DNA from: Mytilisepta virgata | Lineage: Eukaryota; Mollusca; Bivalvia; Mytilida; Mytilidae | DNA: 64,000 nucleotides | Assembly (NCBI GenBank): GCA_028015205.1 | Contig: CM051514.1 | Coordinates: 4,464,001-4,528,000, forward strand | Direction of reading: 5' to 3' | Part shown: piece after piece, positions 22,402-60,560 of the stretch | Position numbering within the stretch: position 1 is the stretch's first letter | Layout: every line of letters starts with the position of its first letter | Program-made: the position numbers and the translations under genes | The notes under the pieces: generated by a model | Databases searched by the model: none | Seen by the model: only the letters and a program-made list of their open reading frames with translations | What the model was told of the DNA's origin: nothing

Positions 22402-22526
22402 GGTTTATTGGTTCCTACTAGATACTTAATACCTGTGGATCTTTCAAAGACCAAAGCAAAACCAGAAATGAAAATGAAAATACTTTCAACCAAAGTGGAG
22501 AGAACCAAACGGCTGGACAACACAAG
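22402..22526 (+). pseudogene. Fragment of the zinc-ribbon gene of the palindromic element
   Basis: About 42 codons, matching residues 8-49 of the protein encoded at 36857-37312, with a few substitutions (PTRY for PARY; MKMKILST for MKRKILPT). It stops before the zinc-ribbon cysteines. Confidence 0.85.
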
Positions 22527-23165
22527 ATGTCCATCGTATCACCAGCAGATAAAAAGAGCGGGATAAGGGGAGATAGTCCAATAGTGTACTTCGTATACTC
22601 TCGGACTTTGACATAACAGTCAGAGTATCAGACCCTAGAGACCTATGAAAGATCCAGAGAGGACCGAAAAGTGCGGGAAAAGGGAGATATTTCTATCTGA
22701 GTTCTGATCAAGCATGGCAAATCCGGGTCCGTGACTTACGTCACTTCCGTAAACAAATCATGGGGGAAACCCATCACTTCCGGTTGCACATGCGCGCAAA
22801 TCACTTCCGGGTACTTCCGGTTCCGGTCACGCATGCGCAGACCACACATCCGGGTCCTGGCAGGCTACTTGCGTCACTTCCGTAAACAAATGGCGGGAAA
22901 ATCCACTACTTCCGGTTGCGCATGCGCAGATCACACGTCCGGGTCCTGGCACGTGACTTGCGTCGCTTCCGTAAACAAATAGCGGGAAAATCCACTACTC
23001 CCGGTTGCGCATGCCCGCAAAAACTACTTCCGGTTCCGGTCACGTGACCTCCGGTTCCGGTGACTCACTTCTTGTGGCGTCATTTCCGGTTCCGGTGACG
23101 CCACTTCCGGCTACTCCTAGCTCCTCCTCCACAAATGCTAATTTAGAACCGCATATATACTACTA
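22402..23165 (+). mobile_element. Deletion derivative of the 33-40 kb palindromic element
   Basis: 22402-22526 matches codons of the zinc-ribbon gene (GLLVPTRYLIPVDLSKTKAK…ERTKRLDNT). From about 22545 the sequence jumps to the right-end region of the big element: 'gagcgggata', 'ccaatagtgtacttcgtata', 'gcatggcaaatccgggtccg'. It ends in an expanded set of 'gtcacttccggttccgg' and 'gcgcatgcgcag' repeats and a degenerate terminus near 23165. Most of the coding and arm sequence is deleted. Confidence 0.85.
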
Positions 23166-33271: not shown

Positions 33272-33344
33272 TTAAGGCCTAATAATCACTTAAATAAAGG
33301 GTTCAATTTTGTCCAATGTACCCTCCGAATATTAAATCTAAGGG

Positions 33345-33350
33345 TATGTG
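33345..33350 (+). other. Target-site duplication TATGTG, left
   Basis: TATGTG directly abuts the left inverted repeat and matches the right copy at 39895-39900. A second copy at 34385-34390 belongs to a later tandem duplication of flank plus element end. Confidence 0.85.
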
Positions 33351-33408
33351 AGTAGTATATGGGCACAGGCAAATTATTATTTGAGGTGGTGGAAGAGGTG
33401 GAGGTGCT
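33351..33408 (+). repeat. Left terminal inverted repeat, 58 bp
   Basis: Begins agtagtatatgggcacaggc and ends gaggtggaggtgct. It is the reverse complement of 39837-39894 apart from one base. A third identical copy lies at 34391-34448. Confidence 0.9.
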
Positions 33409-34311
33409 CATTTCGCTCCTGCTGCTTGTTGATGTTCGTCATCGCTGCTATTCTCTTGCTCTTTGCTGCTCATCGCTACTCAGGACCTTACTCGCGTGCT
33501 CATTTCGCTCCTGCTGCTTGTTGATGTTCGTCATCGCTGCTATTCTCTTGCTCTTTGCTGCTCATCTCTACTCAGGACCTTACTCGCGTGCTCATTTCGC
33601 TCCTACTGCTTGTTGCTGTTCGTCATCGCTGCTCTTCTCTTGCTCATCGCTGTTTTTCTCTTGCTCTTTGCTGCTCATCGCTACTCAGGACCTTACTCGC
33701 GTGCTCATTTCACTCCTGTTGCTTGTTGCTGTTCGTCATCGCTTATCTTCTCTTGCTCTTTGCTGTTCATCTCTACTCAGGACCTTACTCGCGTGCTCAT
33801 TTCGCTCCTACTGTTTGTTGCTGTTCGTCATCGCTGCTCTTCTCTTGGTCTTTGCTGCTCATCGCTACTCAGGACCTTACTCGCGTGCTCATTTCGCTCC
33901 TGTTGCTTGTTGCTGTTCGTCATCGCTTATCTTCTCTTGCTCTTTGCTGTTCATCTCTACTCAGGACCTTACTCGCGTGCTCATTTCGCTTCTGCTGCTT
34001 GTTGATGTTCGTCATCGCTGCTATTCTCTTGCTTTTTGCTGCTCATCGCTACTCAGGACCTTACTCGTGTGCTCATTTCGCTCCTGCTGCTTGTTGCTGT
34101 TCGTCATCGCTGCTCTTCTCTTGCTCTTTGCTGCTCATCGCTACTCAGGACCTTACTCGCGTGCTCATTTCGCTCCTGTTGCTTGTTGCTGTTCGTCACC
34201 GCTGCTCTTCTCTTGCTCTTTGCTGCTCATCGCTACTCAGGACCTTACTCGCGTGCTCATTTCGCTCCTGTTGCTTGTTGATGTTCGTCATCGCTGCTAT
34301 TCTCTTGCTCG
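33409..34311. repeat. 92-bp minisatellite of the left arm, outer block
   Basis: Units start with ctcatttcgctcctgctgct (33499, 33591, 33704, 33796 …). They are 92 bp long, occasionally 113 through an extra 21-bp 'tcttctcttgctcatcgctg' module. There are no stop codons in any + frame, so it yields several long Leu/Ser/Cys-rich ORFs that I do not consider genes. Confidence 0.9.
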
Positions 34312-34448
34312 TTAAGGCCTAATAATCACTTAAATAAAGGGTTCAATTTTGTCCAATGTACCCTCCGAATATTAAATCTAAGGGTATGTGAGTAGTATAT
34401 GGGCACAGGCAAATTATTATTTGAGGTGGTGGAAGAGGTGGAGGTGCT
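34312..34448 (+). repeat. Second copy of flank, target duplication and left end
   Basis: 34312-34448 repeats 33272-33408: flanking host sequence from 'ttaaggcctaataatcac', then TATGTG, then the 58-bp end. The offset is 1040 bp. The junction lies at a short 'gtta' shared between the minisatellite (…cttgctcgttactgctc) and the flank (…ttttttaaggcc). Confidence 0.9.
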
Positions 34449-34860
34449 CATTTCGTCCTGCTGACTGTTGCTGTTCGTCATCACTGCTCTTCTCTTGCTC
34501 TTTGCTGCTCATTGCTACTCAGAACCTTACTCGCGTGCTCATTTCGCTCCTGCTGCTTGTTGCTGTTCGTCATCGCCGCTATTCTCTTGCTCTTTGCTGC
34601 TCATCGCTACTCAGGACCTTACTCGCGTGCTCAGTTCGCTCCTGCTGCTTGTTGCTGTTTGTCATCACTGCTCTTCTCTTGCTCTTTGCTGCTCATCGCT
34701 ACTCAGGACCTTACTCGCGTGCTCATTTCGCTCCTGTTGCTTGTTGATGTTCGTCATCGCTGCTATTCTCTTGCTCGTTACTGCTCATTGCTACTCATGA
34801 CCTTACTCTCGTGCTCATTTCAGTTTTGGGGCTACTGCTGCTAGTGGGGTCGATTGTTGT
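34449..34860. repeat. 92-bp minisatellite of the left arm, inner block
   Basis: About four more units of the same minisatellite, ending at 'catttcagttttggggctac', where the arm becomes unique. The mirror position in the right arm is about 38160-38215. Confidence 0.88.
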
Positions 34861-35102
34861 TATTCAAAGATTGGATCTGTGCGAGAGCACCCTTACATTC
34901 AGGTCATTTGAAAGGCCACTCTGCATTTATCCAGGCTTGTGACTGGCTATCATAAGATAGGCTGCATTAATCCTCCTCTATTTTTTAAGGCCACTCTGCA
35001 TTTGTCCAGGCTTGTGACTGGCTATATATATGTTTAAACATATATAGGCTGCATTACCCTCCTTCCCTTTTTTTAAAATTTTTTTTAATTTTTTAATTTT
35101 TT
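34861..35102. repeat. Tandem hairpin-bearing spacer of the left arm
   Basis: The phrase 'ggccactctgcattt.tccaggcttgtgactggctat' occurs twice, each followed by a perfect short palindrome (tatcataagata; tatatatgtttaaacatata) and 'ggctgcatta'. A T-rich stretch follows. The mirror copy is at 37980-38130. It sits just after the 3' end of the gene pair, so a role in transcript ending is possible but unproven. Confidence 0.8.
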
Positions 35103-35513
35103 TTATATATTTTTTTGGTTTTTTTTGTAGTATATCAGTCCGAGGTAATGCTTTCGTATTTCGTCTCTGTATGTGTCAAACATGTCTCTATATGCTGCCA
35201 AGCGTGCCTCGTTTTCTTCCATTCCGGCTTCGACTAGTTCGTTTACTTTCTGTGAGTATTCCGATTGATGTACTTGAAATGTTCTATTCAAAATGACTTC
35301 CCATGGGGACTGTTCGCATTGCTCTTCGGAATCTTCGTTGGATTCATTGTCACTGCTTTGTTCCGATTCCTCGTCATCGGCTTCTGTGGTGGTGTCTGAG
35401 ACTGAATCACTATAGTCTGTTGAATCGTCTTCCATACCGTGTGCATTATTTTTGTGTCGCACTAGGTTGAAGTTTCGCTTGGACTGGTATCCACATATGT
35501 CACAGGTATACAT
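35103..35513 (-). CDS. C2H2-finger acidic protein, left-arm copy, C-terminally truncated
   Basis: 136 codons. It matches the first ~127 residues of the protein at 37313-37888 with three differences near the finger (DI for DT, KN for KK, DD for DN), then diverges after HYLGLI into YYKKNQKNI and stop. Comparison of the arms shows that about 215 bp were deleted between two 'atat' words, removing the Lys/Glu-rich C-terminus. It abuts the zinc-ribbon ORF: that gene's stop precedes this ATG without a gap. It probably gives a shortened product, if any. Confidence 0.7.
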   Translation of the reverse strand: MYTCDICGYQSKRNFNLVRHKNNAHGMEDDSTDYSDSVSDTTTEADDEESEQSSDNESNEDSEEQCEQSPWEVILNRTFQVHQSEYSQKVNELVEAGMEENEARLAAYRDMFDTYRDEIRKHYLGLIYYKKNQKNI

Positions 35514-35969
35514 TTAAGACGTCTTTCTTTCCTGGGATTCAATACTAGAATGAGCTCCGGTCGTCCTGCAAGTGCTTATATTAGCTACAGGTTCCTCAAC
35601 GGCTTGTTGATTCATACACAAACGTTTGGCAAAGTATTCGTTTCGATATTGTTGCAGTTCAGATTTCACTTTTCTGATGAGGTCTCTATTAAGTCTTGTC
35701 CACTCGTTGTTAATCCTTCTACACCCCTTGCAGACATTCATGTTTTTGTAGAATTCCCCAAAGCTCTTGTTCATTTGACACTTTGTACATTTCTTGTTTG
35801 GATCCACTTTGCTGGGTCCTCCACTTGTGTTGTCCAGCCGCTTGGTTCTCTCCACTTTGGTTGGAAGTATTTTCCTTTTCATTTCTGGTTTTGCTTTGCT
35901 CTTTGAAAGATCCACAGGTATTAAGTATCTAGCAGGAACCAATAAACCGAGAGGCGTTTTCGACTCCAT
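35514..35969 (-). CDS. Zinc-ribbon protein, left-arm copy
   Basis: 151 codons, intact, with five amino-acid differences from the right-arm copy at 36857-37312 (six nucleotide differences in 456). It carries the same KKCTKC…FY…VCKGCRR ribbon. The start is chosen at the methionine shared by both arms. Function unknown; see the right-arm entry. Confidence 0.75.
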   Translation of the reverse strand: MESKTPLGLLVPARYLIPVDLSKSKAKPEMKRKILPTKVERTKRLDNTSGGPSKVDPNKKCTKCQMNKSFGEFYKNMNVCKGCRRINNEWTRLNRDLIRKVKSELQQYRNEYFAKRLCMNQQAVEEPVANISTCRTTGAHSSIESQERKTS

Positions 35970-36293
35970 TGATACGTGTGTGTTGTTTGACGGTCTTCAA
36001 ACAACTGACGAAATTAAACAAAACCTCTGATTATATTTTTGTTAAAAGCTTTCCATTGGTGTCATGGTGACGAAAATTGCTTTTTTTATTCATTCAGACC
36101 TCACAGTTCGGTGTACGTTGTTCGTTGTTGTTGCTGGTGTGCCAGGGAGAAGGTTACTGTTACTGTTACTTCAAAATCACTTCTTGGTCTCGATGATGTT
36201 ACGATGAACATCAAAGATGGCTGCGGCCATGTAACGCGGACCTGAAAGAGAGCACCCTTATGAAACAGAAATTTTAGAGTCTTTCCGGACGGG

Positions 36294-36529
36294 AACGCCT
36301 GTGGTTCACCTAAGCAAGCGTGACTGTTTGCCTCATGTTTGTAACGCTTGCACCAGTGAACCCCCGACGATGGGGTATGAGTTGTTAGAGTAGGAGTACG
36401 AGACAGACCTACGATAAGGGTTAGAGGCAGGACTAGGGTTAGGGTTAGAACTAGGGTTAGGGTTAGAGTTAGGGTTGGGTTAGGACTCGAGTTAGGGTTA
36501 GGGTTAGGACTGAAATCCGTAAATGTTCG
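36294..36529. other. Unique centre of the palindrome with telomere-like repeats
   Basis: The arms meet at 'gacgggaacg' (36284-36293) and 'cgttcccgtc' (36530-36539). Between them lie a 120-bp unique segment and, at about 36416-36513, some ten degenerate TTAGGG words (agggttagggttag, with interruptions such as aactaggg and gactcgag). TTAGGG is the usual metazoan telomere repeat. All are in one orientation, so they are not part of the inverted structure. Confidence 0.88.
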
Positions 36530-36539
36530 TTCCCGTCCG

Positions 36540-36856
36540 GAAAGACTCTGAAATTTTCATTTCATTAGGGCGCTCTCTTTCAGGTCCGCGTTACATGGCC
36601 GCAGCCATCTTTGATGTTCATCGTAACATCATCGAGACCAAGAGGTGATTTATAACGTAACAGTGAGAATCCCACCTTCTCCCCGGCACACCAGCAACAA
36701 CAACGAACAACGAACACCGAATTGTGAGGTCTGAATGAATGAAAAAAGCAATCTTCGTCACCATGACACCAATGGAAAGCTTTTAACAAAAATATAATCA
36801 GAGGTTTTTTAATTTCGTCAGTTGTTTGAAGACCGTCAAACAACATACACGTATCA
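36540..36856 (+). promoter_or_regulatory. Upstream region of the right-arm gene pair
   Basis: About 320 bp between palindrome centre and the zinc-ribbon ATG, mirrored in the left arm (35970-36283). It contains 'catggccgcagccatctttg', whose reverse strand resembles a YY1-type AAGATGGC.GC site, and 'gtttgaagaccgtcaaac', an imperfect inverted repeat near the start codon. Divergent placement means both gene pairs would be transcribed outward from the centre. Promoter function is inference. Confidence 0.4.
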
Positions 36857-37312
36857 ATGGAGTCGAAAACGCCTCTCGGTTTATTGGTTCCTGCTAGATA
36901 CTTAATACCTGTGGATCTTTCAAAGACCAAAGCAAAACCAGAAATGAAAAGGAAAATACTTCCAACCAAAGTGGAGAGAACCAAGCGGCTGGACAACACA
37001 AGTGGAGGACCCAGCAAAGTGGATCCAAACAAGAAATGTACAAAGTGTCAAATGAACAAGAGCTTTGGGGAATTCTACAAAAAAATGAATGTCTGCAAGG
37101 GGTGTAGAAGGATTAACAACGAGTGGACAAGACTTAATAGAGACCTCATCAGTAAAGTGAAATCTGAACTGCAACAATCTCGAAACGAATACTTTGCCAA
37201 ACGTTTGTGTATGAATCAACAAGCCGTTGAGGAACCTGTAGCTAACATAAGCACTTGCAGGACGACCGGAGCTCATTCTACTATTGAATCCCAGGAAAGA
37301 AAGACGTCTTAA
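36857..37312 (+). CDS. Zinc-ribbon protein of the palindromic element, right-arm copy
   Basis: 151 codons, intact. Residues 1-50 are basic (PEMKRKILPTKVERTKR). Residues ~58-90 form a zinc ribbon, KKCTKCQMNKSFGEFY then VCKGCRRINNEW, i.e. CxxC…FY…CxxC. This pattern is common in small phage and large-DNA-virus proteins, often linked to HNH-type nucleases, but no HNH residues are visible here. A helical basic stretch follows, then a Ser/Thr-rich tail. Its TAA is followed immediately by the ATG of the next gene, so the two probably share one transcript. A fragment of the same gene occurs at 22402-22526. I do not know the function; DNA or RNA binding is a guess from charge and ribbon. Confidence 0.8.
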   Translation: MESKTPLGLLVPARYLIPVDLSKTKAKPEMKRKILPTKVERTKRLDNTSGGPSKVDPNKKCTKCQMNKSFGEFYKKMNVCKGCRRINNEWTRLNRDLISKVKSELQQSRNEYFAKRLCMNQQAVEEPVANISTCRTTGAHSTIESQERKTS

Positions 37313-37888
37313 ATGTATACCTGTGACACATGTGGATACCAGTCCAAGCGAAACTTCAACCTAGTGCGACACAAAAAGAATGCACACGGTATGGAAGACA
37401 ATTCAACAGACTATAGTGATTCAGTCTCAGACACCACCACAGAAGCCGATGACGAGGAATCGGAACAAAGCAGTGACAATGAATCCAACGAAGATTCCGA
37501 AGAGCAATGCGAACAGTCCCCATGGGAAGTCATTTTGAATAGAACATTTCAAGTACATCAATCGGAATACTCACAGAAAGTAAACGAACTAGTCGAAGCC
37601 GGAATGGAAGAAAACGAGGCACGCTTGGCAGCATATAGAGACATGTTTGACACATACAGAGACGAAATACGAAAGCATTACCTCGGACTGATATCTTGGC
37701 ATCAAGACATGAATAAAGACCTCGCACATAGAAAGATCAAGAAAACGGCTAAACGCCTGAGAGAAGAGGAAGACTACGAATCAAAAGAATCATGGGAATA
37801 TGCCGTAGAAAAACGAAAATATCTGGTTAACTGTGTATTGAACGACTACGACCCACCACCATCTGAAGACAGCAATGACTCTATGTGA
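37313..37888 (+). CDS. C2H2-finger acidic/coiled protein of the palindromic element, right-arm copy
   Basis: 191 codons, the complete version of the gene truncated in the left arm. Residues 1-26 form one classical C2H2 finger (YTCDTCGY…LVRHKKNAH). Residues ~27-65 are strongly acidic and Ser-rich (TTEADDEESEQSS…). From ~66 onward it is predicted helical: WEVILNRTF…EYSQKVNELVEAG…YRDEIRKHY, then a Lys/Arg/Glu-rich end with KKTAKRLREEEDYESKESW and a short acidic tail. It starts directly after the stop of the zinc-ribbon gene. I recall similar single-finger acidic proteins in Polinton/adintovirus-type elements, but cannot confirm this here. DNA-binding regulator is the simplest reading. Confidence 0.8.
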   Translation: MYTCDTCGYQSKRNFNLVRHKKNAHGMEDNSTDYSDSVSDTTTEADDEESEQSSDNESNEDSEEQCEQSPWEVILNRTFQVHQSEYSQKVNELVEAGMEENEARLAAYRDMFDTYRDEIRKHYLGLISWHQDMNKDLAHRKIKKTAKRLREEEDYESKESWEYAVEKRKYLVNCVLNDYDPPPSEDSNDSM

Positions 37889-38160
37889 CGGAGGAATTGG
37901 AACATATTACAAAAAAAACAGAAAAAAATATATAAAAAAATAAAAAAATAAAAAAAAAATTAAAAAAATTGGAAGGAGGGTAATGCAGCCTATATATGTT
38001 TAAACATATATATAGCCAGTCACAAGGCTGGACAAATGCAGAGTGGCCTTAAAAAATTGAGGAGGATTAATGCAGCCTATCTTATGATAGCCAGTCACAA
38101 GCCTGGATAAATGCAGAGTGGCCTTTCAAATGACCTCTCGCACAGATCCAATATTTGAAT
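37889..38160. repeat. A-rich and hairpin spacer of the right arm
   Basis: A long A-rich run after the C2H2 stop, then two copies of 'tagccagtcacaagcctgga' type sequence with palindromes (tatatgtttaaacatata; tatcttatgata). Mirror of 34861-35102. Confidence 0.8.
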
Positions 38161-38164
38161 AACA

Positions 38165-39445
38165 ACAATCGAACACCACTAGCAGCAGTAGCCCCAAAAC
38201 TGAAATGAGCACCCGAGTAAGGTCCTGAGTAGCGATGAGCAGCAAAGAGCAAGAGAATAGCAGCGATGACGAACATCAACAAGCAGCAGGAGCGAAATGA
38301 GCACGCGTGTAAGGTCATGAGTAGCGATGAACAGCAAAGAGCAAGAGAAGAGCAGCGATGAGCAAGAGAAGAGCAGCAGGAGCGAAATGAGCACGCGAGT
38401 AAGGTCCTGAGTAGCGATGAGCAGCAAAGAGTAAGAGAAGAGCAGTGATGACGAACAGCAACAAGCAGCAGGAGCGAAATGAGCTCGCGAGTAAGGTCCT
38501 GAGTAGCGATGAGCAGCAAAAACAAGAGAATAGCAGCGATGACGAACATAAACGAGCAGCAGGAGCGAAATGAGCTCGCGAGTAAGGTCCTGAGTAGCGA
38601 TGAGCAGCAAAGAGCAAGAGAATAGCAGCGATGACGAACATCAACAAGCAGCAGGAGCGAAATGAGCACGCGAGTAAGGTCCTGAGTATTGATGAGCAGC
38701 AAAGAGCAAGAGAAGAGCAGCGATGACGAACAGCAGCAAAGAGCAAGAGAAGAGCAGCGATGACGAACAGCAACAAGCAGCAGGAGCGAAATGAGCACGC
38801 GAGTAAGGTCCTGAGTAGCGATGAGCAGCAAAGAGCAAGAGAAGATAAGCGATGACGAACAGCAACAAGCAACAGGAGCGAAATGAGCACGCGAGTAAGG
38901 TCCTGAGTAGAGATGAACAGCAAAGAGCAAGAGAAGATAAGCGATGACGTACAGCACTAGCAACAGGAGCGAAATGAGCACGCGAGTAAGGTCCTGAGTA
39001 GAGATGAACAGCAAAGAGCAAGAGAAGATAAGCGATGACGTACAGCACTAGCAACAGGAGCGAAATGAGCACGCGAGTAAGGTCCTGAGTAGCGATGAGC
39101 AGCAAAGACCAAGAGAAGAGCAGCGATGACGAACAGCAACAAACAGTAGGAGCGAAATGAGCACGCGAGTAAGGTCCTGAGTAGAGATGAACAGCAAAGA
39201 GCAAGAGAAGATAAGCGATGACGAACAGCAACAAGCAACAGGAGTGAAATGAGCACGCGAGTAAGGTCCTGAGTAGCGATGAGCAGCAAAGAGCAAGAGA
39301 AAAACAGCGATGAGCAAGAGAAGAGCAGCGATGACGAACAGCAACAAGCAGCAGGAGCGAAATGAGCACGCGAGTTAGGTTCTGAGTAGAGATGAGCAGC
39401 AAAGAGCAGCGATGAGCAAGAGAAGAGAAACGAAATGCATCATAG
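38165..39445. repeat. 92-bp minisatellite of the right arm
   Basis: The same unit as in the left arm, reverse-complemented (…gagcgaaatgagcacgcgag…), about 13 units with internal 21-46 bp insertions. All minus frames are nearly free of stops for the same arithmetic reason (92 is not divisible by 3). Confidence 0.9.
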
Positions 39446-39836
39446 AGCAATGAAATGGACCGCCGTTGCTAAGGCGGTTGCTAAGGACACCCCTCCATTG
39501 ATCTATTGGTGACAGCATCACTTGGAGGTAAGGGGACATAATCCAATCCTACCTGTGGTCCTCACAGAAAACATCACCCACAAATGAAAAGAGCGGGATA
39601 TGAGGAGATAATCCAATAGTGTACTTCGTATACTCTCGGACTTCGACATAACAGTGAGGGTATCCGTTCCTAGAGACCGACGGGGGCCAAGAGACGACCG
39701 AGAAGTGCGGGAAAAGGGGAGATAATTCAATCTGAGTTCTGGTCAAGCATGGCACATCCGGGTCCGTGACTGACGTCACTTCCGGTTCCGGTGACGTCAT
39801 TTCCGGTTCCGGTGACGTCACTTCCGACACCTCCAC
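39446..39836. promoter_or_regulatory. Right subterminal region with TGACGTCA and CTTCCGG motifs
   Basis: Present only at the right end of this copy but shared with 22545-23100. Ends in a cluster of 'gtgacgtcacttccggttccgg' type words at about 39770-39830, i.e. CRE/ATF-type TGACGTCA palindromes next to ETS-type CTTCCGG. Related copies at 43.3 and 53.6 kb keep these motifs, suggesting a function for the ends (protein binding, transcription or replication). No experiment supports this. Confidence 0.6.
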
Positions 39837-39894
39837 AGCACCTCTACCTCTTCCACCACCTCAAATAATAATTTGCCTGTGCCCATATACTACT
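39837..39894 (-). repeat. Right terminal inverted repeat, 58 bp
   Basis: Reverse complement of 33351-33408 with one substitution. Followed by TATGTG at 39895-39900. Confidence 0.9.
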
Positions 39895-39900
39895 TATGTG
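39895..39900 (+). other. Target-site duplication TATGTG, right
   Basis: Matches 33345-33350 exactly and directly abuts the right inverted repeat. Confidence 0.85.
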
Positions 39901-53554: not shown

Positions 53555-55450
53555 AGTAGTACATGTATATACATGTAGGAGGTTTTCAGTTAGGATTTGT
53601 GGTGGTGGTGGAGCGAGGTGAAGACGGATATGACATCAGCGGAAGCGGAAATGACGTCATCGGAAGGGGAAGTCACATGACCGGAACCGAAAGTACTCGA
53701 AGGTGGATTGCGCGCATGCGCAACCGGAAGTGCTGGTTTTGCCGCTATTTTTCCATGTTTTGTTTACGGAAGTGACGTCAAACGTGTGACCGGACCCGGA
53801 TGTGTCGTCTGCGCATGCTTCACCGTAATTTGGATTGGATTGTTGCTGTTCGTCGCTGCTCGTCGCTGCTCGTCGCTGCTCGTCGCTGCTCGTCGCTGCT
53901 CGTCGCTGCTCATCGCTGCTGATCGCTGCTCGTCGCTGCTCATCGCTGCTCTTCTCTTGCTCACAGCTGCTCATCACTATTCTCTTGCTCATCACTGCTC
54001 ATCTCTCGCTCCGCGCTGCTCATCGCTGTTCTTTTCTTGCTCATCACTGCTCATCTCTGGCTTATCGCTGTTCTTCTTTTCTCATCTCTTGCTCATCGCT
54101 GCTCTTCACTGCTCTTCTCTTGATCCGTGCTGCTCATCACTGCTCTTCTCTTGTTCAGCGCTGCTCATCACCGCTTAACTCCTACTCATCGCTGCCCATC
54201 GCTGCTCATCTCTACACTTCTCCTACTCAGTGCTGCTCATCACTTTTCTCTTGCTCATAACTGTTCATCTCTCGCTCCGTGCTGCTCATCGTTGTTCTTC
54301 TCTTGCTCATCCCTGCTTTTTTCTGCTCATCTCTTGCTCATCGCTGCTTTTCCCTGCTCATCTCTTGCTCATCGCTGCTTTTCCCTGCTCATCTCTTGCT
54401 CATCGCTGCTTTTCCCTGCTCATCTCTTGCTCATCGCTGCTCTTCAATGTTCTTCTCTTGATCCGTGCTCTCATCACTGTTCGTATCTTGCTCATCGCTG
54501 CTCGTCACCGCTCAACTCTTACTCATCTCTGCCCATCGCTGCTCATCTCTGCTCTTCTCCTGCTCAGTGCTGCTAATCACTGCTTTTACCTTGCTCTGTG
54601 CTACTCATTGCTGCTCTTCTCTTGCTCCGTGCAGCTCATTGCTGCTCTTCTCTTGCTCATCGGTTCTCGCCGATGCTCATCACTGCTCGTCACTGCACAT
54701 CGCTGCTCTTTTCTTGCTCAGAGCTTCTCATCACTGCTCATCTTTTGCTCCATGCTGCTCATCTTTTGCTCATCGCTAATCTTCACTGCTCTTCTCTTGC
54801 TCATCACTGCTCCTATCTTGCTCTTCGCTGCTCATCTCTTGCTCATCGTTGCTCTTCTCTTGCTCCGTGCTGCTCAGGTCTGCTTTTCGCTGCTCATCTC
54901 TTGCTCATCACTGCTGTTCTCTTGCTCATTACAGCTCTTCTCTTGCTCTTCGCTGCTCATCTCTTGCTCTTGGCTGCTCTTCTCTTGCTCATGGCTGCTC
55001 ATTTCTTGCTCATGCTGCTCATCGCTGCTCTTCTCTTTGTCTTCGCTGCTCATCTCTTGCTCATGCTGCTCATCACTGCTCGTCTCTTGCTCCGTGCTGC
55101 TCATCACTGCTCTTCTCTTGCTCATCGCCGCTCTTCTCTTGCTCCTTCTGCTCATCGCTGCTCTTCTCTTGCTCCGTGCTACTCATCACTGCTCTTCTCT
55201 TGCTCTTCGTTGCTCATTGCTGCTCATCGCTGCTCTTCTCTTACTCATCACTGCTCATCTCTTGCTCCATGCTTCTCACGCTGCGCTACTCTTGCTCTTC
55301 GCTACTCTTCTCTTGCTCTTAGCTGCTCAATGCTGGTCATTCCTGCTCTTCTTGTGGTCCGGGCTACTCTTCTATTGCTCCATGCTGCTCTTTGCTGGTC
55401 ATCGCTGCCCAGCACCATGGTCTCGTGCTCCATTCTTGGTCTTAATATTC
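53555..55450. mobile_element. End-type derivative of the palindromic family with giant 'ctcatcgctgct' array
   Basis: The left part (53580-53830) has the family subterminal pattern: ggtggtggtggagcgagg, gaagcggaaatgacgtcatcgg, gcgcatgcgcaaccgg, gtttacggaagtgacgtc, gaccggacccggatgtg. From 53841 to about 55430 runs an array of 11-23 bp words (cgtcgctgct; catcgctgctcttctcttgct), related to but not identical with the 92-bp arms. It has neither gene pair nor matching opposite terminus. Long Ser/Leu/Cys-rich ORFs here are array artefacts. Confidence 0.8.
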
Positions 55451-56811: not shown

Positions 56812-59800
56812 ACCGCTATTGGCTGTTCATTATATGGTTAATACATTGTAATACGGGCATGTTAAGCCTGGAAGCTGTTGGCTGTTCATTATATGGTTCA
56901 TACATTGTAATACGGGCATGTAAAGCCTGGAAGCTGTTGGCTGTTCATTATATGGTTCATACATTGTAATACGGGCATGTAAAGCCTGGAAGCTGTTGGC
57001 TGTTCATTATATGGTTCATACATTGTAACACGGGCATGTAAAGCCTGGAAGCTGTTGGCTGTTCATTATATGGTTCATACATTGTAACACGGGCATGTAA
57101 AGCCTGGAAGCTGTTGGCTGTTCATTATATGGTTCATACATTGTAACACGGGCATGTAAAGCCGGGAAGCTATTGGCTGTTCATTATATTGTTCATACAT
57201 TGTAAGACGGTCATGTGAAGCCGGGAAGCTATTGGCTGTTCATTATATGGTTCATACATTGTAAGACGGGCATGTAAAGGACGGTCATGTGAAGCCGGGA
57301 AGCTGTTGGCTGTTCATTATATGGTTCATACATTGTAAGACGGGCATGTAAAGCCGGGAAGCTGTTGGCTGTTCATTATATGGTCCATACATTGTAATAC
57401 GGGCATGTAAAGCCTGGAAGCTGTTGGCTGATCATTATATGGTTCATACATTGTAAGACGGGCATGTGAAGCCGGGAAGATGTTGGCTGTTCATTATATG
57501 GTCCATACATTGTAATACGGGCATGTAAAGCCTAGAAGCTGTTGGTTATTCATTATATGGTTCATACATTGTAATACGGGCATGTGAAGCCGGGAAGCTG
57601 TTGGCTGTTCATTATATGGTTCATACATGGTAATACGGGCATATAAAGCCGGGAAGCTGTTGGCTGTTCATTATATGGTTCATACATGGTAATACGGGCA
57701 TGTAAAGCCGGGAAGCTGTTGGCTGTTCATTATATGGTTCACACATTGTAACACGGGCATGGGAAGCTGTTGGCTGTTCAGTATATGGTTCATACATTGT
57801 AATACGGGCATGTAAAACCGGGAAGATCTTGGCTGTTCATTATATGGTCCATACATTGTAATACGGGCATGTAAAGCCTAGAAGCTGTTGGTTATTCATT
57901 ATATGGTTCATACATTGTAATACGGGCATGTGAAGCCGGGAAGCTGTTGGCTGTTCATTATATGGTTCATACATTGTAATACGGGCATGTAAAGCCGGGA
58001 AGCTGTTGGCTGTTCATTATATGGTTCATACATTGTAATACGGGCATATAAAGCCGGGAAGCTGTTGGCTGTTCATTATATGGTTCATACATGGTAATAC
58101 GGGCATGTAAAGCCGGGAAGCTGTTGGCTGTTCATTATATGGTTCACACATTGTAACACGGGCATGGGAAGCTGTTGGCTGTTCAGTATATGGTTCATAC
58201 ATTGTAATACGGGCATGTGAAGCCGGGAAGCTGTTGGCTGTTCATTATATGGTTCATACATGGTAATACGGGCATGTAAAGCCGGAAGCTGTTGGCTGTT
58301 CATTATCTGGCTCTTACATTGTAAGACGGGCATGTAAAGCCTGGAAGATGTTGGCTGTTCATTATATGGTCCATACATTGTAATACGGGCATGTAAAGCC
58401 TGGAAGCTGTTGGCTATTCATTATATTGTTCATACATTGTAATACGGGCATATAAAGCCGGGAAGCTGTTGGCTGTTCATTATATGGTTCATACATGGTA
58501 ATACGGGCATGTAAAGCCGGGAAGCTGTTGGCTGTTCATTATATGGTTCACACATTGTAACACGGGCATGGGAAGCTGTTGGCTGTTCAGTATATGGTTC
58601 ATACATTGTAATACGGGCATGTAAAACCGGGAAGATCTTGGCTGTTCATTATATGGTCCATACATTGTAATACGGGCATGTAAAGCCTAGAAGCTGTTGG
58701 TTATTCATTATATGGTTCATACATTGTAATACGGGCATGTGAAGCCGGGAAGCTGTTGGCTGTTCATTATATGGTTCATACATTGTAATACGGGCATGTA
58801 AAGCCTGGAAGCTGTTGGCTGTTCATTATATGGTTCATACATTGTAACACGGGCATGTAAAGCCTGGAAGCTGTTGGCTGTTCATTATATGGTTCATACA
58901 TTGTAACACGGGCATGTAAAGCCTGGAAGCTGTTGGCTGTTCATTATATGGTTCATACATTGTAACACGGGCATGTAAAGCCGGGAAGCTATTGGCTGTT
59001 CATTATATTGTTCATACATTGTAAGACGGTCATGTGAAGCCGGGAAGCTATTGGCTGTTCATTATATGGTTCATACATTGTAAGACGGGCATGTAAAGGA
59101 CGGTCATGTGAAGCCGGGAAGCTGTTGGCTGTTCATTATATGGTTCATACATTGTAAGACGGGCATGTAAAGCCGGGAAGCTGTTGGCTGTTCATTATAT
59201 GGTCCATACATTGTAATACGGGCATGTAAAGCCTGGAAGCTGTTGGCTGATCATTATATGGTTCATACATTGTAAGACGGGCATGTGAAGCCGGGAAGAT
59301 GTTGGCTGTTCATTATATGGTCCATACATTGTAATACGGGCATGTAAAGCCTAGAAGCTGTTGGTTATTCATTATATGGTTCATACATTGTAATACGGGC
59401 ATGTGAAGCCGGGAAGCTGTTGGCTGTTCATTATATGGTTCATACATGGTAATACGGGCATGTAAAGCCGGAAGCTGTTGGCTGTTCATTATCTGGCTCT
59501 TACATTGTAAGACGGGCATGTAAAGCCTGGAAGATGTTGGCTGTTCATTATATGGTCCATACATTGTAATACGGGCATGTAAAGCCTGGAAGCTGTTGGC
59601 TATTCATTATATTGTTCATACATTGTAATACGGGCATATAAAGCCGGGAAGCTGTTGGCTGTTCATTATATGGTTCATACATGGTAATACGGGCATGTAA
59701 AGCCGGGAAGCTGTTGGCTGTTCATTATATGGTTCACACATTGTAACACGGGCATGGGAAGCTGTTGGCTGTTCAGTATATGGTTCATACATTGTAATAC

Positions 59801-60560
59801 GGGCATGTAAAACCGGGAAGATCTTGGCTGTTCATTATATGGTCCATACATTGTAATACGGGCATGTAAAGGACGGGCATGTAAAGCCTGGAAGCTGTTG
59901 GCTATTCATTATATGGTTCATACATTATAATACGGGCATGTAAAGGACGGGCATGTAAAGCCTGGAAGCTGTTGGCTATTCATTATATGGTTCATACATT
60001 ATAATACGGGCATGTAAAGGACGGGCATGTAAAGCCTGGAAGCTGTTGGCTATTCATTATATGGTTCATACATTATAATACGGGCATGTAAAGGACGGGC
60101 ATGTAAAGCCGGGAAGCTGTTGGCTGTTCATTATATGGTCCATACATTGTAATACGGGCATGTGAAGCCTGGAAGCTGTTGGCTATTCATTATATGGTTC
60201 ATACACTGTAATACGGGTATGTGAAGCCGAAAAGCTGTTGGCTGTTCATTATATTGTTCATACATTGTAATACGGGCATGTAAAGCCGGGAAGCTTGTAA
60301 GACGGTCATGTGAAGCCGGGAAGCTATTGGCTGTTCATTATATGGTTCATACATTGTAATACGGGCATGTAAAGGACGGGCATGTGAAGCCGGGAAGATG
60401 TTGGCTGTTCATTATATGGTTCATACATTGTAAGACGGGCATGGGAAGCCGGAAAGCTATTTGCTGTTCATTATATGGTTCATCCTTTGTAATACGGACA
60501 TGTAAAGGACGGGCATGTAAATACATTGTTAGGCGGGCATGTGAAGCCGGGAAGCTGTTG
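56812..60560. repeat. 59-bp satellite array with higher-order duplications
   Basis: Unit gctgttggctgttcattata + tggttcatacattgtaatac + gggcatgtaaagcctggaa (59 bp), about 60 copies. Variant markers reveal segmental duplication: about 57000-57640 recurs at 58820-59460 (offset 1819), a block around 58307 recurs at 59493 (offset 1186), and 57824 at 58634 (offset 810). At 59870-60100 a 74-bp derivative unit repeats three times. The array decays after 60300. Non-coding. Confidence 0.93.

Follow-up and report, generated by a model that had tools for sequence, protein, structure and literature searches.

A mirror-image element of Mytilisepta virgata is probably a decayed member of a palindromic Polinton sub-lineage

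Polintons (Mavericks) are thought to be both transposons and viruses, and their replication is poorly observed. The element described here occupies positions 33351-39894 of a 64,000-nucleotide stretch from the bivalve Mytilisepta virgata (assembly GCA_028015205.1, contig CM051514.1, positions 4,464,001 to 4,528,000 of the forward strand), which is referred to as the window. It is a mobile element with mirror-image (palindromic) arms, confirmed directly in the sequence, and it probably belongs, in decayed form, to a palindromic sub-lineage within a Polinton family resident in this genome. Vertebrate Mavericks have (AGT)2//(ACT)2 or (AG)3//(CT)3 termini and 6-bp duplications, as described in passages of PMC8097293, and the present family likewise has (AGT)2//(ACT)2 ends and 6-bp duplications. 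Its canonical copies encode a PolB polymerase, an RVE integrase with a chromodomain, an A32-type ATPase, and a cysteine protease, which fit the Polinton gene set outlined in part of PMC4028283. In contrast to such Polintons, the window element has none of these genes, the palindromes are mirror-image, and twister ribozyme matches are present. The palindromes that do carry PolB also differ, as they contain two PolB genes and have no ATPase match downstream.

The snapback genomes of adeno-associated virus (AAV), in their 5′ and 3′ versions, are a second point of comparison. In these molecules one end of a linear genome is mirrored head to head, in symmetric and asymmetric forms (sections of PMC8235507), which resembles the arrangement seen here. 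Unlike AAV snapback genomes, the Mytilisepta elements are chromosomally integrated and occur in many copies with partly homologous centres. Foldback elements, including Drosophila Foldback and Galileo, share long, internally repetitive inverted arms with the window element (excerpts of PMC3573991), but the latter has Maverick-type ends, a Maverick-type duplication length, and genes inside its arms. The twister matches differ from known twister ribozymes in that they lie behind the open reading frames (ORFs) of a Polinton-type DNA element and in that their twister-P1 scores fall below the gathering score. At the level of titles and abstract openings, the open-access literature names no palindromic or ribozyme-bearing Polinton, and no open-access paper was found that joins twister and Polinton; the ribozyme passages of PMC6431247 concern rotifer Terminons.

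The termini of the window element read AGTAGT...ACTACT. The 19-bp end AGTAGTATATGGGCACAGG is present at 33351 (+) and at 39876-39894 (-) with 0 mismatches, against a chance expectation of 0.01 matches per window. The terminal inverted repeats (33351-33408, +; 39837-39894, -) agree over 58 bp with one mismatch and are flanked by the target-site duplication TATGTG at 33345-33350 and 39895-39900; the original prediction had described all of these features, together with the AG…CT termini, as they were found. Inside the element, long inverted arms at 35132-36021 and 36805-37694 match over 890 nt at 99%, and a further inverted stretch covers 233 nt at 93%. No PolB, integrase, ATPase, capsid-type ORF, or protease match is present in the window element, and the last four are also without a match in loci L009-L028. 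Since the element lacks its own PolB and integrase, it is a derivative and not a canonical Polinton, and this copy was presumably mobilised in trans. The original prediction that the element has no transposition enzyme agrees with the missing integrase match, and its proposal of a non-autonomous element of the Polinton kind is borne out by the ends and 6-bp duplications shared with canonical Polintons.

A 1.03-Gb assembly of 109 contigs was searched for relatives, and the counts from genome search listings are lower bounds. With up to 3 mismatches, the 19-bp end has 2,025 matches genome-wide (955 + 1,070), versus 214 (62 + 152) for a control consisting of its reversed pattern, so the other copies that the prediction had proposed to look for do exist. 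A 556-bp query comprising the end and the minisatellite has 180 genome matches, many of them clustered and facing opposite ways. By eye, opposite-facing arms are seen in 16 of 20 fetched stretches of about 10 kb (all except L017, L023, L025, and L026). Short copies with both ends have 6-bp duplications of their own, namely ATCGCT (L016), GACGTA (L019), and AACAAC (L024). Neighbouring + and - places among 100 listed exact end places, the window excluded, were matched by eye into 20 further end pairs with a spacing of 2.6 to 15.7 kb. The 6-bp duplication is exact in 19 of these (2/2 in a first set and 17/18 in a second), and it agrees at 5/6 bases in the exception, C8:210285-222979. The 20 pairs comprise 4 canonical elements, 10 palindromic elements, and 6 shorter derivatives.

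Canonical status denotes ATPase and capsid-type matches inside an end pair. The canonical pairs are C7:44929873-44944833, C8:29310662-29325292, C8:210285-222979, and C4:833780-847139, and pieces of the first three were read. They span 12.7-15 kb, and the duplication is exact in three of the four, the fourth being the 5/6 case above. These are larger Polintons with the same ends, as the prediction had anticipated, with PolB, ATPase, protease, a capsid-type ORF, and, in one element, an RVE integrase. The capsid-type ORF, a candidate for the double jelly-roll major capsid protein by its sequence pattern, has 119 matches in the genome.

The C7 element contains the end of the PolB gene, a Bcl-2-like ORF (E 7e-4, a match below the cut-off), a double-PC4 ORF (1.5e-18), and an ATPase (Pox_A32, 3e-5, above the cut-off). 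Its integrase matches RVE (PF00665, 6e-15) and is joined by a chromodomain (8e-10; L096), the relevant stretch having been read in this one element. Towards one end lie a capsid-type ORF, a protease sequence, a twister match (E 3e-12), and then a CARD-PC4 ORF (CARD 5e-11) before the terminus. The element also has a small basic ORF that we take to be of minor-capsid or core type. Its capsid-type match is interrupted by a stop, and some canonical copies are damaged. The C8:29310662 element carries an ATPase, a capsid-type ORF, a protease ORF, and a twister match (3e-10); the protease ORF matches Peptidase_C5 at E 0.0035, below the cut-off, and African swine fever S273R in the PDB at E 1e-3. Loci L058 and L059, canonical elements read at one end, both contain capsid-type, protease, and twister sequences, with CARD/PC4 in L058 as well, and neither contains the ORF1 or ORF2 of the window element. 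Domains of apoptosis or immunity type are a separate observation in canonical Polintons: the CARD-PC4 ORF at L058:1305-2270 (CARD 5e-11) and the Bcl-2-like ORF at L060:1110-1337 (7e-4, below the cut-off).

PolB has 1,468 homologs, and among the 120 listed, many have a precomputed PF03175 assignment; the C-terminal piece of PolB itself matches PF03175 at E 0.025, below the cut-off. A genome search yielded 636 first-look candidates, the best 150 of which were scored, and + and - matches under 8 kb apart were counted as pairs. Among these 150 matches, a single PolB lies inside two of the four canonical pairs, and in single-PolB elements the gene reads inward from one end. By contrast with such single genes, 76 of the 150 matches form 38 convergent mirror pairs, and divergent pairs number 0. 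Start-to-start spacing is 4.6-5.5 kb in 28 of the 38 pairs and 2.1-4.5 kb in the other 10, with a median of 4,875 bp. Within 0-6 kb downstream, on the same strand, an ATPase match accompanies 50/74 single PolB matches versus 0/76 paired ones (Fisher p 9e-22, from the first 94 of 153 ATPase matches). This contrast indicates that one family exists in two genome forms, PolB palindromes and canonical elements. The same 94 matches include no ATPase mirror pair closer than 15 kb. Among the 119 capsid-type matches, a single opposite-facing pair less than 8 kb apart was seen by eye at C12:88854934-88861215, a possible palindrome of the far end.

Palindromic structure is also visible at the midpoints of the end pairs. 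Self-complementarity runs through the centre in both C1 pairs (L038, 1,916 bp at 98.9%; L039, 622 bp at 94.4%) and in L015. Midpoint windows match their own reverse complement in 6 of 18 cases: nearly all 801 bp match in L040, L048, and L052, and only the outer parts, around a non-matching middle, in L044, L046, and L056. C7:12237185 and C7:32057841 contain mirrored PolB matches and are counted as palindromic although their midpoint windows show no self-match. The window element belongs with the palindromes that carry ORF1, ORF2, and twister matches. A PolB relic (residues 167-242) occurs in the ~15-kb ORF1/ORF2-type palindromes L038 and L039, a few hundred bases from the twister match, which suggests that these larger palindromes probably descend from PolB-bearing forms. 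Moreover, the centres of the PolB palindromes L044 and L046 share stretches of ~90-330 bp, at 76-90%, with the ORF1/ORF2 palindromes.

The two arms of a copy tend to be each other's closest relatives. In a tree of 25 arm pieces (L009 was omitted as too short), 6 of the 7 copies that could be assessed have sister arms, with strong support for the window (95/95), L015 (100/99), and L013 (98/92) and weaker support for L019, L028, and L012. Identity between the two window arms is 98.9% over 838 nt, compared with 97.8% to the nearest other copy.

Each window arm matches twister ribozymes in sequence and in fold, as judged by Rfam covariance, and self-cleavage is predicted. Twister-P5 (RF02684) has one match per arm, at 38.0 bits against a gathering score of 37.6. 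In the right arm, twister-P1 (RF03160) matches at 37977-38049 (+, E 2.2e-12) and 38064-38124 (+, E 4.2e-13) were found at a permissive threshold; the stronger scores 59.1 bits and the weaker 56.6, under the gathering score of 67.2, with E about 1e-12. The left arm holds DNA that matches this pair at 98.7%; the left twister pair lies at 34901-35059 (-), with its twister-P5 match at 34931-35000. Across the family loci, twister-P1 scores 44-66 bits, with one more match at 29.8, all below the 67.2-bit gathering score. The twister-P5 gathering score is reached in 10 of 15 further loci (11 matches), the others being L015, L016, L023, L026, and L027. In the C7 and C8:29310662 canonical elements, the twister matches given above (3e-12 and 3e-10) stand beside the protease. 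Apart from twister, a histone 3′ stem-loop (RF00032; 42.4 bits, gathering 34) lies at L032:893-937, between a twister match (440-497) and the element end C1:9987783, and microRNA matches in L059 were disregarded as far under their gathering scores.

Inward from each terminus, the order of the window element is end, subterminal segment (right arm only), minisatellite, twister pair, ORF2, ORF1, and centre. ORF1 encodes 151 aa with two CxxC pairs on the left (35514-35969, -) and 151 aa on the right (36857-37312, +). ORF2 is unequal between the arms: the right copy (37313-37888, +) encodes 191 aa with a weak C2H2 match and a predicted helical domain, and the left copy (35103-35513, -) is truncated to 136 aa. 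The prediction of mirror-image arms with the same two genes and the same 92-bp minisatellite is therefore correct for the arms, ORF1, and the minisatellite, and not for an equal ORF2. In the genome, ORF2 has 2,810 first-look candidates, and of the 150 scored, many lie in divergent pairs about 2-5 kb apart. A protein search with ORF1 returned no relative at E 0.001, and searches of IMG/VR viral contigs with ORF1, the ORF2 alignment, and the capsid-type ORF likewise found none. A fold search with the ORF2 model (mean pLDDT, a per-residue confidence score, 78) returned nothing at E < 0.001, with weak C2H2-finger matches only. The ratio of nonsynonymous to synonymous substitution rates (dN/dS) is 0.15-0.97 for ORF2 (15 comparisons) and 0.36-3.2 for ORF1 in 6 of 21 comparisons, the other 15 being stopped by a stop codon. 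For PolB pieces it is 0.21 (2 comparisons) and for the ATPase 0.32 (1 comparison). These values are a hint at most, as the pairs are too few and too close.

The 92-bp minisatellite arrays are mirrored between the arms, at 33404-34311 (outer part, +) and 34456-34821 (inner part, +) on the left and at 38202-39408 (-), as the reverse complement of the left unit, on the right. The left arm contains a direct duplication with an offset of 1,040 bp, in which 33272-33415 and 34312-34455 (+) are identical over 144 bp. Through this duplication the element has internal copies of TATGTG, of its 5′ end, and of 73 bp of host left flank, and the window accordingly contains three copies of the 19-bp end. It could be a haplotype or assembly error. 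The twister pair, this duplication with its host flank, and the truncation of left ORF2 are all absent from the original prediction. The right end alone has a ~400-bp subterminal segment with TGACGTCACTTCCGG repeats (39430-39835, +), without a counterpart on the left, and parts of it recur next to the ends of canonical Polintons. The arms meet asymmetrically, with 783 nt between the long arms; this centre (36022-36804) consists of inverted segments (to about 36290 and from about 36525) flanking a GGGTTA-rich spacer. The GGGTTA repeats (36417-36508) are telomere-like, and the spacer also matches repeatedly in L025:1049-1242.

Further traces of the superfamily are found nearby. A one-ended fragment at 22402-23164 of the window comprises an ORF1 piece, a subterminal segment, and the end CGCATATATACTACT. 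A one-ended relative at 53556-55440 has the end AGTAGTACATGTATATAC, repeats of the TGACGTCA/CCGGAAGTG kind, and then a 21/31-bp minisatellite. Elsewhere, the right ends L030 and L031, separated by ~52 kb on C1, share the flank CACAAT and probably reflect a segmental duplication carrying the element. The window also contains a large 59-bp tandem array of 58 copies at 56815-60295.

These results make it probable that the window element is a decayed palindromic Polinton, and several observations weigh against that reading. None of the 7 canonical pieces, which span the capsid end in two elements and the 2.1 kb behind PolB, matches ORF1 or ORF2, so these pieces do not account for the inner part of the window element. 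Neither Pfam nor the PDB has a match to the capsid-type ORF. Modules resembling the centre are found within arms of L022, L026, and L027 and upstream of PolB in L029, so homologous centres are no proof of a common junction, and the weight given to the palindromic sub-lineage is lowered on that account. The arms of L022 do not resolve in the tree, where the bootstrap is not settled, and L012_R is closer to an L013 arm (97.5%) than to its own mate (96.8%). Gene conversion between arms could also yield sister arms, and the hairpin-replication step set out below is inferred.

The arms have other possible explanations. Each palindrome may have originated separately, as a snapback (copy-back) defective genome that derived from a canonical Polinton and was captured when it integrated; the parallel is AAV, which makes both 5′ and 3′ snapback genomes (parts of PMC8235507). 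This is rather unlikely, yet it draws on the inward-reading PolB mirrored in 38 pairs without ATPase, on the sister arms in 6 of 7 copies, and on the 10 pairs with shorter spacing, as differing breakpoints would give. The 28 pairs at 4.6-5.5 kb instead resemble an inherited form, and 2.1 kb behind PolB in one canonical copy contains no match to the palindrome centre or the spacer. The sequence shared between PolB and ORF1/ORF2 palindrome centres argues in the same direction, although the centre-like modules elsewhere weaken this argument and raise the weight of independent snapback. Overall, inheritance of the palindromic form seems more likely than a one-off snapback for each copy, because PolB-pair spacing mostly clusters and the centres are partly homologous, which is not proof. 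Snapback is a likely origin, and the same spacing and partly shared centres argue that the palindromic form is now inherited. The original prediction that one genome end was duplicated head to head is supported in part: the mirrored PolB pairs fit it, but ORF1 and ORF2 have no match in the 7 canonical pieces.

It is likewise improbable that the palindromes arose by internal deletion from Polintons whose terminal inverted repeats were very long, through chromosomal gap repair or recombination with no special replication. The arm junction does vary among short copies (ORF2 residue 132 in L010, 93 in L011, and 7 in L018), which fits later internal deletions, and in both C1 pairs the arms match for 1.5 kb or more inward of the terminus. 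However, PolB is single in canonical copies, and the canonical ends of L058 and L059 carry the gene set listed above and not ORF1/ORF2. A false inverted duplication in the assembly has a very small probability: the 1,040-bp left-arm duplication, with its 144 bp identical across junction copies, is what such an artefact might leave, but palindromes bounded by exact duplications occur at many sites that differ in their flanks, and the window arms are not identical, with a divergence of about 1%. An artefact is unlikely for the palindrome itself. The long arms filled with tandem repeats are foldback-like, and a foldback-type cut-and-paste transposon of another superfamily (P/Galileo or Mutator) with minisatellite arms is nonetheless extremely improbable, given that (AGT)2//(ACT)2 ends and 6-bp duplications are Maverick features (passages of PMC8097293). 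Foldback membership was set aside because one end-sharing element has an RVE integrase, although no search aimed at P- or Mutator-type transposases was made.

For the palindromic sub-lineage, a mechanism of maintenance can be proposed. The 5′ ends of the element would act as protein-primed origins and as integrase substrates, and PolB from canonical or PolB-palindrome copies would replicate the DNA through strand displacement. In a palindrome, the single strand released in this way could fold into one long hairpin in which one arm templates the other, and such arm-on-arm copying would preserve the similarity of the arms from generation to generation. Integrase supplied in trans by canonical copies would insert the product with a 6-bp duplication. 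The 6.5-kb form may have arisen from larger palindromes after loss of PolB and of much of the outer arm. Transcripts would run outward from the centre through ORF1 and ORF2 and may be cut by the twister pair.

A broader hypothesis, which is tentative and somewhat more doubtful than probable, is that palindromic Polintons are a self-maintaining satellite class. Such satellites would be full-length mirror-image linear genomes with their own PolB pair, twister-ended transcripts, and single-strand hairpin replication that homogenises the arms, and they would depend on canonical relatives in the family for integrase and perhaps for capsids. Smaller forms without PolB, the window element among them, would then be satellites of the satellite. 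A single genome contains well over a thousand matches to the end, and two-polymerase palindromes as well as canonical copies, so the mode of replication becomes testable from sequence through arm homogeneity, junctions, and dependence on canonical copies. If the hypothesis is true, Polintons would gain a counterpart of defective or satellite genomes, and twister ribozymes would be placed in the context of a Polinton transcript.

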